This document shows positions 18,835 to 23,923 of a DNA stretch of 64,000 nucleotides, one piece after another. The DNA comes from Microbacterium sp. LWH13-1.2 (GTDB lineage: Bacteria; Actinomycetota; Actinomycetes; Actinomycetales; Microbacteriaceae): positions 744,001 through 808,000 of the forward strand of contig NZ_CP151635.1 of NCBI RefSeq assembly GCF_038397735.1. Reading direction: 5' to 3'. Under the pieces are notes generated by a model, which made no database searches, was not told the DNA's origin, and saw nothing but the letters and a program-made list of their open reading frames with translations. Every line of letters starts with the position of its first letter. The stretch's first letter is position 1. A program made the translations under genes and the position numbers.

Positions 18835-19908
18835 GTGGCTCTCACTATCGGAATCGTCGGCCTGCCCAATGTCGGCAAGTCCACCCTCTTCAACGCTCTG
18901 ACCAAGAACGACGTGCTCGCGGCGAACTACCCGTTCGCGACGATCGAGCCGAACGTCGGGGTGGTGAACCTGCCCGATCCGCGTCTCGACAAGCTCGCCG
19001 AGATCTTCGGCAGCGAGCGCATCCTCCCCGCCGCCGTGTCGTTCGTCGACATCGCCGGCATCGTGCGCGGCGCGAGCGAGGGGGAGGGCCTCGGCAACAA
19101 GTTCCTCGCGAACATCCGTGAGGCCGATGCCATCGCACAGGTCGTCCGCGGCTTCGCCGATGACGACGTCGTGCACGTCGACGGCGCCGTCAACCCGGCA
19201 TCCGACATGGAGACGATCAACGCGGAGCTGATGCTCGCAGACCTCGAGACAGTCGACAGGGCGATCACCCGTTACGAGAAGGAAGTACGCGGCAAGAAGA
19301 TCGAGCCGGTCGTGCTCGAGACCGCGACCGCGGCGAAGGATGCTCTGGAGCGCGGCGTGCTGCTGTCGGTCGCCGGCATCGACCTGACGCCGATCCGCGA
19401 GCTGGGCCTGCTCACGGCCAAGCCCGTCATCTTCGTCTTCAACGTCGACGAGGCTGTTCTCACGGACGACGCCCGCAAAGCGGAGCTCGCGGCACTCGTC
19501 GCCCCGGCCAAGGCGATCTTCCTCGACGCGAAGATCGAGTCCGAGCTGATCGACCTCGACCCCGAGGATGCCGCTGAGCTTCTCGCGTCGACGGGACAGG
19601 ACGAGTCGGGCCTCGACCAGCTCGCCCGCATCGGCTTCGACACGCTCGGTCTCCAGACATACCTCACCGCAGGCCCCAAGGAAGCCCGCGCCTGGACGAT
19701 CCCCAAGGGTTCGAAGGCTCCGCAGGCCGCCGGTGTCATCCACACCGACTTCGAGAAGGGCTTCATCAAGGCCGAGATCGTGTCTTTCGACGACCTGGTC
19801 GAGACCGGCTCGGTCGTCGAAGCCCGCTCCAAGGGCAAGGCACGCCTCGAGGGCAAGGACTACGTCATGAAGGACGGCGACGTCGTGGAGTTCCGCTTCA
19901 ACAACTGA
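18835..19908 (+). CDS. ychF: Redox-regulated ATPase YchF (OLA1/Obg family)
   Basis: An Obg-family P-loop protein of 357 residues that prefers ATP and associates with ribosomes. G1 is GLPNVGKS (9-16), G3 DIAGIVRGAS and the ATP-specific NVDE replaces NKxD; the C-terminal TGS-like domain ends in VEFRFNN. GTG 18835 is the family start and lies 8 bases after TAGACT (18821-18826). The last 39 bases including the stop are repeated almost exactly 0.8 kb downstream, and a 20-base core is repeated again 1.35 kb downstream. Confidence 0.96.
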   Translation: MALTIGIVGLPNVGKSTLFNALTKNDVLAANYPFATIEPNVGVVNLPDPRLDKLAEIFGSERILPAAVSFVDIAGIVRGASEGEGLGNKFLANIREADAIAQVVRGFADDDVVHVDGAVNPASDMETINAELMLADLETVDRAITRYEKEVRGKKIEPVVLETATAAKDALERGVLLSVAGIDLTPIRELGLLTAKPVIFVFNVDEAVLTDDARKAELAALVAPAKAIFLDAKIESELIDLDPEDAAELLASTGQDESGLDQLARIGFDTLGLQTYLTAGPKEARAWTIPKGSKAPQAAGVIHTDFEKGFIKAEIVSFDDLVETGSVVEARSKGKARLEGKDYVMKDGDVVEFRFNN

Positions 19909-19912
19909 GCGA
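19874..19912 (+). repeat. Copy 1 of the ychF-end repeat (inside ychF)
   Basis: The native ychF 3' end from ACGGCGACGTC to GAGCGA. Its core GGAGTTCCGCTTCAACAACT encodes E-F-R-F-N-N and the stop. Compared with copy 2 it differs at three of 39 positions; with copy 3 it shares all 20 core bases. It is the likely parental site of the repeat series. Confidence 0.85.
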
Positions 19913-20292
19913 TGGTTCCGGTGCGATGTACTGGGTCCTCTCCGATCCCACCTCACCGGCGGTGGTCGGGCGACGACAGTCGGAAACGCGTGTGGGGAGT
20001 TCTGTGATGACTGCCGACATGCGGTGGAAGAACGAGGCCGCGTTCGAATCGGACCTGTGCACGGCGGATGAGGATCGTCTCAGGGAGATCCTTCATTGGG
20101 CGGCCTCGGGCGAGGCTCGCACATCCAGCAACGGCAGGCACAACAGCCCAAGTACGCGTCGCGGTTGGAAAGCGCGCCGGCAGGCCGTCCAAGGCGAATG
20201 ATCAGACGTGGGATGGGCGTCTGATGTCCGCGCGAGACATCGCGGAGCTCCCCTTCGGAAACACATCTGACGGGCCCAAGTAAGCTCGCGCC
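19913..20292 (+). other. Segment A, left part: decayed or uncertain coding sequence
   Basis: Two overlapping plus-strand frames are plausible but neither is convincing alone. ATG 20007 with GGGGAG at 19994-19999 opens a 64-residue frame (to 20201) that looks protein-like at its beginning (helical, acidic). Another frame ending at 20283 looks protein-like at its end (KRAGRPSKANDQTW, DIAELPFGN). A single-base frameshift between about 20140 and 20180 would join the two good halves, so this may be a broken small gene. I recognise no family. Confidence 0.35.
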
Positions 20293-20379
20293 ATGATCCA
20301 GAGCAACAGAGCCTCGCTCAGCATCCGCAGCGATAGGTTGATCGATGATCGGGTCCGTCGGAAAGAAGGGCATTTCTGA
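20293..20379 (+). CDS. 28-residue leaderless ORF coupled to the next gene
   Basis: ATG 20293 follows TAAGCT (20281-20286) by six bases, the leaderless arrangement of this window. The peptide is basic (MIQSNRASLSIRSDRLIDD then RVRRKEGHF) and its stop overlaps the start of the 105-residue gene (TGATG), so it may couple translation of that gene. No family recognised. It could be a leader peptide rather than a functional product. Confidence 0.45.
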   Translation: MIQSNRASLSIRSDRLIDDRVRRKEGHF

Positions 20380-20696
20380 TGGCTAGGCGTGTCATGTTCG
20401 TTCAGCAAAAGTCTGGGTTCAACACCGATGCCGGGCCATGCTGGATTGGCTGGGTCGACTTCAACCGCTCATGGAAGACGGCACGGTTCCACGGTCGCGA
20501 GCTCCGCAGACTTCAGGGCCCCGACGCGAATTTCTACGACGTCGAAACCGACGAGTGGTTCTGGCTCTCGGGTCCGAAGCGAGACCAGACGGATGCGCGA
20601 TACAGGAACACCGACCCGCTCGTGGATCCGGACGCACTGGACCACTACCGCGCGTTTCTTGCCGGAGAGCCACTTCCCGGACGCGAGCAAGGATGA
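20379..20696 (+). CDS. Small conserved actinobacterial protein of unknown function (cargo of segment A)
   Basis: A protein of 105 residues rich in Trp, Arg and Asp, with blocks GPCWIGWVDFNRSWKTARFHG, less its ends, LRRLQGPDANFYDVETDEWFW and a terminal LPGREQG. I recall a sporadic actinobacterial small family with this pattern that is often mislabelled as 1-deoxyxylulose-5-phosphate synthase; it has no thiamine motif and cannot be that enzyme. GAAGG lies about 9 bases before ATG 20379. The stop codon abuts copy 2 of the ychF-end repeat, so the gene ends exactly at a repeat boundary. Confidence 0.72.
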   Translation: MARRVMFVQQKSGFNTDAGPCWIGWVDFNRSWKTARFHGRELRRLQGPDANFYDVETDEWFWLSGPKRDQTDARYRNTDPLVDPDALDHYRAFLAGEPLPGREQG

Positions 20697-20735
20697 ACGG
20701 CGACGTCGTGGAGTTCCGTTTCAATAACCGAGCGA
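20697..20735 (+). repeat. Copy 2 of the ychF-end repeat
   Basis: Thirty-nine bases matching the ychF end at 36 positions; the first 22 (ACGGCGACGTCGTGGAGTTC onward) are identical. The three substitutions all fall in the last half and remove the ychF stop codon (TGA to CGA). It begins on the base after the stop of the 105-residue gene and contains the stop codon of the minus-strand 131-residue gene. Confidence 0.85.
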
Positions 20736-21116
20736 ATCGGCGCGCGTGCGGGATGCGCGCTTGCGCTGATCGGCGACGTCGAGCGTCACCACGAACTCCA
20801 GCTTCTCTTCGATAGACGGATCGATTAACTCCTCGGAGTAGACCGTGATGATCTCGGCGTCATCGTGCGGATCGTTTCCGCTGACGGCATCGCCACTCGG
20901 GATGCGTTCGACTCTGACGCGCGAGCCATCCGCCCGGATGAATTCGATGTCGATGACCGTGCCTTCTACCTCAGAAACCGGCTCCTCGGCAGAATGAACG
21001 ACCTGGAAGAACTGCCCATCAGGGGTGGTGAGGTACGTCCACTGCACACGCTGATACCGCGTGACCTCGGGCCCACAGCAACTGTGCTCTCCGCCGGCGT
21101 CGATGATGATCTGCAT
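20721..21116 (-). CDS. Hypothetical 131-residue protein (cargo of segment B)
   Basis: An acidic protein with no transmembrane helix or signal peptide and no family that I recognise. It has an adjacent cysteine pair (GGEHSCCGPE, about 8-17) and a beta-rich middle section (VQWTYLTTPDGQFFQVVHSA). ATG 21116 follows TAACGT (minus strand, 21123-21128) by six bases, which supports a real, leaderless gene. Its last codons and TGA stop are provided by copy 2 of the ychF-end repeat read in reverse, so the gene and the repeat overlap physically. Confidence 0.6.
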   Translation of the reverse strand: MQIIIDAGGEHSCCGPEVTRYQRVQWTYLTTPDGQFFQVVHSAEEPVSEVEGTVIDIEFIRADGSRVRVERIPSGDAVSGNDPHDDAEIITVYSEELIDPSIEEKLEFVVTLDVADQRKRASRTRADSLGY

Positions 21117-21246
21117 CCGCTCACGTTACCGGGCGATGCCTGGGGCGTCGCCCACGTCGTTTTCCCCGAGGAAGCGTCGAGCCGACGGCGAGGTCACGGT
21201 GAGGGGACCGGCGCACCCAGGCGTCGATCTGCGGCGCAGACCGGGC

Positions 21247-21273
21247 GGAGTTCCGCTTCAACAACTAGAGCGA
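21247..21273 (+). repeat. Copy 3 of the ychF-end repeat
   Basis: GGAGTTCCGCTTCAACAACT (21247-21266) is identical to the core in ychF, again reading E-F-R-F-N-N followed by a stop (TAG), then GAGCGA after one extra base. Sequence to its left does not match ychF, so the repeat here is limited to the core. Copies 2 and 3 share GAGCGAATC, which copy 1 lacks. It lies about 20 bases from the stop of the convergent hydrolase gene. Confidence 0.8.
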
Positions 21274-21292
21274 ATCAGCGTGACCAGCCGGC

Positions 21293-22072
21293 CTAGCCAC
21301 GACGCTCGACGTCGCGGCGCAAGACCTCGGGCCACGCTTCGACGTCTTGAGGCGTACGGGCGACCGTCAGGGTCGCGTGCGGGAGCAGCTGGGCGAGGTG
21401 CTCCGCGGTCGACAGCGGGTGGCCCGGATCATCCACCCACGCCAAGATCGTCGTCGGCACACTGATTCGCGCGATGAGGTCAGGGACGGGCAGGTCGCTG
21501 AGCCCTGCACCGCGAAGGACTGACGGCAGAAGAGCATCGGCGATGTCGGGCCAGGTCTCCGGTGCGGCGACAGTGGCAGGGGGCGGTGTCGACCCGCGCG
21601 TTCCGGCGAGGAATGCCTCCACACCGTCGGATTCGATGAGCGCCGCGGCTGCTCGGTAGATGTCGGCTTGATCGAGTCTGGTCTCCCACGCCGTGGGCGG
21701 CACCATGAGTGTCAGCCCGGAGAAGCGGTCCGGATCGATCGTCGCCGCGTGCAGGAGCGTCGCGGTGCCCATCGACGGTCCCACGCCGTGGACGCGCTCG
21801 CCGGGGAACCACTGATCGAGTACTCGCAGAAGATCGTCGGCGAGATTCTCCCAGCGATAGTCCTCGGGGGCCTTCCTCCCGGTCGACCGACCGTGGCCGC
21901 GTGCGTCGTAGCGCAGCAGACGAGTGCCGCTGAGCCCTCGGCCGAGGTCGAGATTGAGCACCCGGTCGCGGGCGCGGCTAGATGTGAGGCCATGCAGCTG
22001 GACAACCGGGTGTCCGCCTTCATCGCTCAAGGACACAGCCAGCTCGGCTCCGGGCACCTCGAAAGTGGGCAT
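21293..22072 (-). CDS. Alpha/beta hydrolase
   Basis: A 259-residue alpha/beta-hydrolase fold protein. The oxyanion-hole motif is QLHGLTSS (about 25-32), the strand-turn RYDARGHGRST precedes it in the fold order of esterases and haloperoxidases, and the nucleophile elbow is GPSMG with Ser. Asp and His are probably provided by AWVDDPGHPLS. Substrate unknown. The gene converges on the ychF-end repeat array and has a GAGG ribosome site before ATG 22072. Confidence 0.82.
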   Translation of the reverse strand: MPTFEVPGAELAVSLSDEGGHPVVQLHGLTSSRARDRVLNLDLGRGLSGTRLLRYDARGHGRSTGRKAPEDYRWENLADDLLRVLDQWFPGERVHGVGPSMGTATLLHAATIDPDRFSGLTLMVPPTAWETRLDQADIYRAAAALIESDGVEAFLAGTRGSTPPPATVAAPETWPDIADALLPSVLRGAGLSDLPVPDLIARISVPTTILAWVDDPGHPLSTAEHLAQLLPHATLTVARTPQDVEAWPEVLRRDVERRG

Positions 22073-22156
22073 CAGGCTCCTCGATCGGTGACTGACCGCA
22101 TCGGGTCGGGCAGTCGTGGAGTTTTCAGGTTATCCGGGGCCGATAAGGTGCTACCC

Positions 22157-23923
22157 ATGCGACTGACCAACGTCACGCACCTCCGCCTCCCGTTCGGACG
22201 GCTCTGGGGGTACGACGTGAGCGCGTCTGCGCTCGGGCGGCGCCTCCCCGTGTCGTTCGATCAGCGACTCCATGTCGGTGCGGGCGATCGACCCGGCTCG
22301 TGGATGGCATTGTCCTTCCGGTTGCCTGCACAGACTCGTCGTGAGTCGATCGCCGATGCCTGGTTGGCTGTCGTCGCTCGCCATGGCACGCTGCGATCCG
22401 CATTCGCGCTCGGCGCGGATGGCGAACCGGAGCTTCACGAGATCGAGGTCGGCCCCGGAAGCTGGGTCGAACACGAGGTGGGCCCCGGCCAGGCGGTCAA
22501 CGACGCGTTGCGGGACATCCTCGATGCCGCGTGTTCGCCGTACCGACGTCCTTCGCATCGGCTGTGCGTGTTGGAGACTGCTGCGGGGCTCACGGTCGTG
22601 ATCGCGGCTGATCATGCGCACGTCGACATGTGGTCGATGCTGGTGATCGCGCGCGACCTGCTGTCTGCGCTCGATGCGGGAAGGGCCGGCGCGAAGCCGA
22701 TGCCCGGACCGGCGCCCGCCTTCGTCGAACACACGCAAGCGCTGCTGGATCGGGATGCTGCGCCGGATCGCATACGTCGGCGATGGGAGGCCATCATCGC
22801 GGACAGCGGCGGTGTCATGCCGCAGTTCCCGTTGTCACTGGGGTCTCCCGAGCCGCATCGTGAGCGCGTGGAAGTGCGCGATGTGTTCGACGTCGACGAT
22901 GCCGCGGCGTTCGCTGCACAAGCCCGCGACGACGGCGTCTCGACCCTCGCGCGCGCAGTCGTCGCGATGACTGCGGTGACCCGCGAGCTGGCAGGCACGG
23001 CGCTGCGAGCCGTCTTTCCCGTGCACAGCCGCTTCGAGGACAACTGGCACGACTCGGTCGGCTGGTTCATCACCAACTCCGTCCTCGAATCGGAGCTCGC
23101 CGAACCGCACGCGGCGGCGGCAGCGGTGAAGGAGGCGGTGCAGCTCGGAGGGTGGCCGCTCGCAGACGTGCTCGCTCCGTGGGGCGGGATGCCCGTGGCC
23201 CCCGGAATGTTCGCGATCTCGTGGCTGGACCTGCGCAGGCTCCCCGTGCGGATCGATTCCGTCGGGCTCGACGCGCAATACGTCAGCGCGGCGACCGACA
23301 CCGACGGTGTCATGCTGTGGTTCATCCTGGACGAGTCCGGTCTGCACCTGAGATGCCGTTATCCCGACACCGCCGAGGCTCGCGCCAACGTCGGTGGCTG
23401 GCTCGATCTGCTCGTCGCCAGGTTGCAGGCGGACGCGCGGTCCTCGGTGCGCGGGCGATTGCAGGCGGCGGGCCGCACCTTCCGGCTCGAGCGCGCGAGC
23501 CGCGATGACATCGAGGCCATCGCAGCGCTGCTGTCCGACGATCAATTCGGTCCGGACCGGGAGGGCGTCGAGCTCGAACGGTACGAGGCGGGCTTCAGCG
23601 CGGTCGCTCGCGATGCATCCAACTATCTGGGGGTCGTCCGCGACAGCGCCGACCACATCGTCGCCACCATGCAGCTGACCGTCATCCCGGGGTTGTCCCG
23701 CGGTGGTTCGACCCGACTGCAGATCGAGGGGTTGCGAGTCGCGCCAGCGGAACGATCACAGGGCCTGGGCGCGGCGATGCTCGAGTGGGCACACGACTTC
23801 GGGCGTGCACGGGGAGCGCGACTGTCACAGATCACCACCGACGAAGCGCGGGATCGGACTCGCGCCTTCTACACCCGACTCGGGTATGAGACTGCCCATG
23901 TCGGGTTGAAGCGGCACCTCTAG
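22157..23923 (+). CDS. Condensation-domain/GNAT acetyltransferase fusion
   Basis: A 588-residue protein with two acyltransferase folds. Residues 1 to about 430 resemble a stand-alone NRPS condensation/PapA-type domain, with the active-site-like segment AADHAHVDMWS in place of HHxxxDG and a later FPVHSRF and WFITNSV region. Residues about 445-588 form a GNAT domain with LRVAPAERSQGLGAAMLEWA (acetyl-CoA loop) and RAFYTRLGYE. No carrier protein or adenylation domain is nearby, so the acyl donor is probably CoA-linked. ATG 22157 is chosen because homology starts there and TAAGGT lies 7 bases upstream; the open frame continues to 21668 only as antisense of the hydrolase gene. Confidence 0.75.
   Translation: MRLTNVTHLRLPFGRLWGYDVSASALGRRLPVSFDQRLHVGAGDRPGSWMALSFRLPAQTRRESIADAWLAVVARHGTLRSAFALGADGEPELHEIEVGPGSWVEHEVGPGQAVNDALRDILDAACSPYRRPSHRLCVLETAAGLTVVIAADHAHVDMWSMLVIARDLLSALDAGRAGAKPMPGPAPAFVEHTQALLDRDAAPDRIRRRWEAIIADSGGVMPQFPLSLGSPEPHRERVEVRDVFDVDDAAAFAAQARDDGVSTLARAVVAMTAVTRELAGTALRAVFPVHSRFEDNWHDSVGWFITNSVLESELAEPHAAAAAVKEAVQLGGWPLADVLAPWGGMPVAPGMFAISWLDLRRLPVRIDSVGLDAQYVSAATDTDGVMLWFILDESGLHLRCRYPDTAEARANVGGWLDLLVARLQADARSSVRGRLQAAGRTFRLERASRDDIEAIAALLSDDQFGPDREGVELERYEAGFSAVARDASNYLGVVRDSADHIVATMQLTVIPGLSRGGSTRLQIEGLRVAPAERSQGLGAAMLEWAHDFGRARGARLSQITTDEARDRTRAFYTRLGYETAHVGLKRHL

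Follow-up and report, generated by a model that had tools for sequence, protein, structure and literature searches.

Staphylococcal cassette chromosome (SCC) elements, SCCmec included, carry large serine recombinases (LSRs) and sit at the 3' end of rlmH, where they are bounded by direct repeats and can form tandem composite islands, some members of which have no recombinase of their own. Integrons hold rows of small recombinase-less cassettes, each bounded by a recombination site. Here, we describe rows of small cassettes downstream of ychF, which encodes the universal GTPase YchF, in Microbacterium and other actinobacteria. The starting point is a stretch of 64,000 nucleotides from Microbacterium sp. 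LWH13-1.2 (C1:744001-808000; called the window below), whose genome of 3.77 Mb is one contig. We propose that small cassettes were inserted serially at the ychF end by an LSR acting in trans, a reading to which we give a probability of roughly 0.62 on the strength of sequence comparison.

Two published elements lie near the same gene or in the same type of location. In the available excerpts of the reports, the pneumococcal prophage PPH005 inserts beside ychF and alters its expression (PMC6375853, PMC8637289), and the PAISt island of Streptomyces turgidiscabies is located at the 3' end of bacA and excises in modules (PMC4057263). The titles and opening lines of abstracts on ychF or Rv1112 together with integrases do not present the 3' end of ychF as an attachment site; reports that use other gene names would escape such a search.

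In the window, the 3' end of ychF (19874-19912) recurs downstream in direct orientation, as the initial annotation of the sequence had noticed. The copy at 20697-20735 is identical at 36 of 39 positions, and the core GGAGTTCCGCTTCAACAACT is matched exactly at 21247-21266. The 39-nt repeat extends 4 nt beyond the stop codon of ychF (19906-19908). When up to two mismatches are allowed, a 19-mer of the core is found in the genome at these three places only, all on one strand, and the control read backward gives none. The initial annotation counted three copies around two cargo segments. The three clear copies stand, but a decayed fourth at 20242-20270 had been overlooked. It lies exactly at the end of a 357-bp cassette of the relative G162, where an intact copy is present (alignment of the window with G162, L070), and cassette 1 of the window is this same cassette, with 326 of 359 aligned columns identical. 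The decayed copy scores only -9.0 in an ungapped weight matrix, so its identification rests on the alignment with relatives. The window thus holds four copies, which bound three cassettes of about 357, 466 and 537 bp.

Serial site-specific insertion into the end of ychF, which had been put forward on the basis of these repeats, is supported by the arrangements found in relatives. In G053, ychF runs straight into the sequence found after copy 3 of the window (83% identity over 2.68 kb); this is an empty site. The same place holds two other cassettes of 897 and 2584 bp in G205, and the 357-bp cassette in G162. Relatives, then, do not share one arrangement. From 3-31 nt after the last core, the flank of the window is 83-93% identical over 2.2-2.7 kb in G053, G051, G052, G162 and G205; it comes after the two other cassettes in G205, and lies about 440-500 bp beyond the last copy in G162, G051 and G052. 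The window is therefore colinear with its relatives from that point on, contrary to the earlier statement that a conserved gene block ends here. Inserts at this site are bounded by direct repeats of the ychF end, and fuller versions have a recombinase gene at the junction (33 of 58 loci, see below), while none is present in the window or in the arrays that were read.

Sixty regions, 11 of them extended, were fetched from 58 congeners. Multi-copy genomes were chosen deliberately, with 15 more taken as single-copy, so the 60 regions give no prevalence. A first cut yielded 105 cassettes in 44 of the 60 sequences (median 1104 bp, range 302-4258 bp; gaps of at least 7 kb, such as the 19.5-kb gap of G021, were excluded). 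G045 has 11 copies over 18 kb at the first cut and 13 by weight matrix, and G008 has 10 copies over 12 kb. At a score of 12, the matrix, which was trained on 106 of its 122 sites, finds 122 sites on the ychF strand versus 1 on the other; a plain pattern gives 127 matches, ychF's own ends included, versus 0 on the opposite strand. Among 398 Microbacteriaceae genomes drawn evenly, about 73 by hand count have at least two same-strand matches, a few of them with matches far apart or on different contigs; the control read backward matched four genomes, once each. Two of the 60 sequences are the two ychF copies of G057 (L077 and L078 on G057:C80), which are inverted, lie about 43 kb apart and have identical 3-kb flanks. 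This pair is either an inverted duplication or an assembly error.

The anatomy of the site can be read from intact elements that carry an LSR (ten loci, with attR in hand for only some). Their junctions share the 11-bp core GTSGAGTTCCG. The attL site consists of ychF up to and including this core, followed by element sequence, and the attR site consists of a P half, the same 11 bp and, at the far right, the native end of ychF (B'). Intact elements supply their own tail to YchF at the left end: tails at LSR loci include FRSGLTSGGKK, FRTGLTSKK, FRFGSTSTSKG and FRHS, and the native FRFNV is found in 2 of 30. Across L145-L201, the 28 non-native tails of these 30 are often lysine-ended or end in HS.

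Each cassette runs from the core and B', with the native YchF tail and stop codon, on the left to a P half-site and core on the right, and the YchF tail is FNN or FNV in 55 of the 60 congener regions. The cassettes do not carry the P and P' halves that single attB x attP chemistry would place in them, since their left end is the native ychF end. The left halves of 106 array copies divide into 66 P-type, 21 ychF-like and 19 other; the P-type copies have an inverted CGGAAC-8nt-GTTCCG core, and conservation among copies ends about 22 nt to the right of the core start. In a matrix built from all 106 left halves, 25 of 26 attR left halves of LSR elements (near-duplicates L154, L207, L208 and L213 excluded) score at least 5, with a mean of 14.6; this score is reached by 0.58% of shuffles and 0.19% of genomic 25-mers. 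The right ends of cassettes thus carry the half-site of ychF LSRs. With a P half on the right and ychF's own half on the left, an excised cassette would have the site P|B'.

Integrases were expected in larger versions of the element, and these are found in many actinobacteria. A scan of viral contigs for the ychF end gave 10 contigs, and in four of them (L095, L097, L098, L101) an LSR is found tens of bp away from a copy whose left flank is foreign. The Resolvase and Recombinase domains of a large serine integrase were confirmed in L097, L098 and L101; L095 and others are assigned by homology only. The LSRs of these contigs are 35-47% identical to each other. A further viral scan for the P half plus core gave seven matches, one of them real and on a contig already found. 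A profile made from six LSRs retrieved 58 loci (one contig entered twice, as L153 and L154), 57 in actinobacterial records and one, a distant match, in an alphaproteobacterial metagenome-assembled genome (MAG). In 20 of the 58 the LSR is no more than 43 bp away from an attR-type copy, and in 13 it starts 5-52 bp past the matched ychF end, which makes 33 with an LSR within 52 bp of the ychF end or a copy of it; in the other 25 it is at neither, although nine of these have ychF within about 11 kb. These 33 include Nocardia, Gordonia, Actinomyces, Rothia, Brevibacterium, Mycolicibacterium and Cellulomonas. The nearest solved relatives of the ychF LSRs are an integrase (9iu2) and the TP901-1 integrase. 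Within the genus, 89 of 366 genomes carry an LSR relative at E <= 1e-30. The LSR elements at ychF indicate which enzyme probably docks the cassettes. One such element, about 10 kb long in a Mycobacterium MAG (L145:10001-20358), contains terminase, portal and capsid genes and looks like a capsid-forming phage satellite.

A second type of enzyme is found at the same gene end. In L094 (8563-9398) and L096, a long copy of the ychF end is located 60 bp from a 250-aa tyrosine integrase, and a 61% relative of this integrase lies near a copy in L103; the long copy on these phage contigs is a probable attP. LSRs and tyrosine integrases both occur beside ychF-end copies, and thus enzymes of two unrelated classes have come to use this gene end. 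On the viral contig L101 (1386-4007), a single copy is flanked by a tyrosine integrase and a serine integrase. A search of the 60 congener loci for integrase motifs gave nothing convincing, with an expression that misses the ychF LSR subfamily, which came to light only through the viral contigs. Comparison of six integrases with the arrays by tblastn, in which L095 counts as a target only, gave one LSR fragment, in G267, about 11 kb downstream of ychF and about 3 kb beyond the last copy.

Several cassettes behave as units. An 814-bp cassette is common to G045 and G108, two species, at 97.7% identity; its neighbours differ, and homology starts and stops at the core. G040 has two identical 1253-bp cassettes in tandem. 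A HigBA-like unit (toxin and antitoxin names taken from plasmid annotation) accounts for 15 open reading frames (ORFs) in 10 arrays, and in 14 of 17 places, at ordinal positions 1-7, its start coincides exactly with a copy when matrix-found copies are counted; G008 (where the match is partial), L058 and L065 have one exception each. More generally, 142 of 208 homology starts between arrays fall within 40 bp of a copy (12.0 expected), as do 78 of 105 by matrix sites (11.9 expected), many of the homology pairs coming from the single HigBA family. A plasmid search with the 814-bp cassette gave no match. The same search with the G040 cassette led to a Nocardia farcinica ychF array in which a copy again marks the start of the HigBA-like unit; partial matches to the HigBA cassette occur in 20 records, and the one examined is this array, in a 2.66-Mb N. 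farcinica record. The array (L288, strain NCTC11134) has four copies downstream of ychF and opens with a HigBA-like cassette about 5.3 kb past the gene, and its YchF ends in HS.

The cargo is diverse. The 139 ORFs scanned, part of 204 picked by codon bias and some of them surely spurious, match 109 Pfam families (E <= 1e-4). Among the 25 families shown are helix-turn-helix antitoxin types, GNAT, hydrolases, glyoxalase, AAA, DUF4262 and Barstar, and PADLOC profile matches include AbiEi/AbiEii as well as type II and type IV restriction enzymes.

In the proposed mechanism, a free cassette would carry a P|B' site, and an LSR supplied in trans would join it to B|B' at ychF. Joining would leave B|B' intact at ychF, and further cassettes could then be added to the array beside the gene. 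Canonical LSRs recombine attP with attB, and the P|B' site of a cassette, which resembles attR, is not a canonical partner for attB. The proposal would therefore require either a permissive LSR or one assisted by a directionality factor, or else a tyrosine integrase, the last with the ychF-like copies in mind, copy 2 of the window included.

Other observations also weigh against the insertion of small cassettes by an LSR. Within the genus, only L116 and L117 of the 30 best LSR loci are at the ychF end. No ychF-end copy lies within 1.5 kb of int in any of six named phages whose LSRs are related (SuMoo, Percival, Caron, UtzChips, LastHope and prophiGD54-2). The ychF-end LSRs do not form one clade, and the tree gives no support to a single origin for them. 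A profile search of the window's own genome at E 1e-30 found no LSR of the ychF-element family; other recombinase-domain matches there are more than 0.4 Mb distant. All three later copies of the window belong to the ychF-like and other left halves (21 and 19 of 106), and ychF's own left halves average 8.6 in the left-half matrix. Finally, homology ends between arrays fall at a copy no more often than by chance (16 of 208, 15.5 expected; by matrix sites 13 of 105, 15.2 expected). Arrays thus have left ends in common but not, to the same degree, right ends, which suggests composite cassettes, decay, or segments that never moved as small units.

On the last of these readings, the segments would be remnants of full prophages, satellites or islands with an LSR or tyrosine integrase, each integrated once and reduced to the stretch beside its attR. 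Full elements do use the ychF site, shared segments have their right boundaries elsewhere than at copies, the copies of the window are partly decayed, and G267 has its LSR gene fragment beyond the last copy. Such an origin accounts poorly for native B' left ends with an identical start, which recur for the HigBA-like unit, given that LSR elements place a foreign tail there in 28 of 30 cases. It also leaves aside the 814-bp unit with both ends at the core in two species and the unit exactly duplicated in tandem, and we regard it as rather unlikely. It is improbable that a tyrosine integrase instead of an LSR built the arrays, or at least the ones whose left flanks resemble ychF (copy 2 of the window, for example). 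The integrase contigs described above and the 21 ychF-like left halves would suit such an enzyme, and so would the inverted core of the P-type copies, a shape also known for tyrosine recombinases. Most copies (66 of 106) are P-type, however, the matrix of all left halves fits the sites of LSR elements, and far fewer tyrosine integrase loci have been seen at ychF, in data without a systematic search for them.

Tandem duplication, gene conversion, or a shared RNA or terminator element could in principle produce repeats without any site-specific insertion, and direct repeats could recombine with each other. We consider this highly improbable: the cargo varies between arrays, the left halves of most copies are foreign to ychF, an empty site exists, recombinase genes abut the same type of junction, and conservation halts shortly after the core. 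The copies mark insertion junctions, and it is this evidence, rather than a terminator or Rfam scan, that disfavours the RNA or terminator reading which the initial annotation had named as an alternative.

The features of the window are collected in Table 1. No Pfam family matched the three cassette ORFs scanned. A longer version (169 aa) of the truncated gene in cassette 2 is present in cassettes of G050 and G166. The 105-aa protein of cassette 2 is, by sequence, a member of a conserved family without assigned function; many of its 126 relatives are 60-80% identical, from named actinobacteria and metagenomes.

Table 1. Features of the ychF array in the window (window positions).
Feature	Position	Strand	Remarks
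ychF	18835..19908	+	357 aa, GTG start; B' half of the docking site formed by the final 24 nt (19885-19908), which start at the core
Repeat copy 1	19869..19912	+	End of ychF itself
Cassette 1	19885..20241	+	Small ORF 20007-20201 inside, no Pfam match (scanned as 19926-20198)
Decayed repeat copy, right end of cassette 1	20242..20270	+	From alignment; low matrix score
Cassette 2	20242..20707	+	Opens with truncated gene start from 20293
105-aa gene, cassette 2	20379..20696	+	Function unassigned; no Pfam match; 126 proteins at E <= 0.001
Repeat copy 2	20692..20735	+	39/44 identical; ychF-like left flank
Cassette 3	20708..21244	+	Holds the 131-aa gene
131-aa orphan gene, cassette 3	20721..21116	-	5 proteins at E <= 0.001; no Pfam match
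Repeat copy 3	21245..21268	+	Exact 20-nt core 21247-21266; degenerate left flank
Chromosomal flank	21269..23923	.	Colinear with DNA right after ychF in G053 and with the relatives' flanks; outside the array

If serial cassette insertion by LSRs is correct, the ychF end would be an acquisition hotspot with a recognisable site, common to many actinobacterial families, and defence, toxin-antitoxin and orphan genes could be found by reading downstream of ychF. The ychF serine integrases form a group whose genomic target is conserved in actinobacteria, useful as tools for integration, and mobile elements that carry them rewrite the C-terminal tail of YchF. Insertion of P|B' might amount to integron-like gene capture by serine recombinases, in which B|B' and the native YchF tail are recreated each time, and cassettes could be stacked without limit behind an intact housekeeping gene by any ychF-specific phage or satellite recombinase that happens to be present. 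We offer this extension only tentatively. A serine recombinase that rebuilds attB from P|B' would, if real, represent a second kind of cassette system beside integrons.

In the available excerpts, PPH005 occupies the interval from dnaN to ychF, on the upstream side of ychF, and its 14-bp core bears no relation to the ychF end (PMC6375853, PMC8637289). PAISt is an actinobacterial island at a gene 3' end, but it is large, targets another gene and uses the 8-bp palindrome TTCATGAA, according to the excerpts at hand (PMC4057263).

The ychF LSRs share the Resolvase and Recombinase domains of TP901-1/A118-type serine integrases, whose attB also lies within or at the end of a protein gene; they differ in that ychF elements target the ychF 3' end and rewrite the YchF tail, and in that small cassettes share their half-site. 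Like SCC, the ychF arrays combine a gene 3' end as target, direct repeats, a tandem layout and recombinase-less members. Unlike SCC, they occupy another gene in another phylum, and their cassettes are far smaller (median 1.1 kb in our sample). The target is ychF rather than rlmH, the recombinase is a single LSR gene with no ccr pair seen, and the right end of the cassettes is common to phage and satellite LSR elements. The likeness to integrons lies in the rows of cassettes with toxin-antitoxin, GNAT, hydrolase and orphan genes and no recombinase inside. In contrast to integrons, a gene end forms part of the site, and the enzyme is likely to be a serine recombinase. No integron integrase (IntI) or attI was recognised beside the arrays, the motif scan of the 60 loci having used a tyrosine-recombinase box that is not specific to IntI, and the copy consensus is, judged by eye only, unlike the R'/R'' boxes of attC. 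The ychF arrays work like SCC and integron cassettes combined, and meet neither definition.

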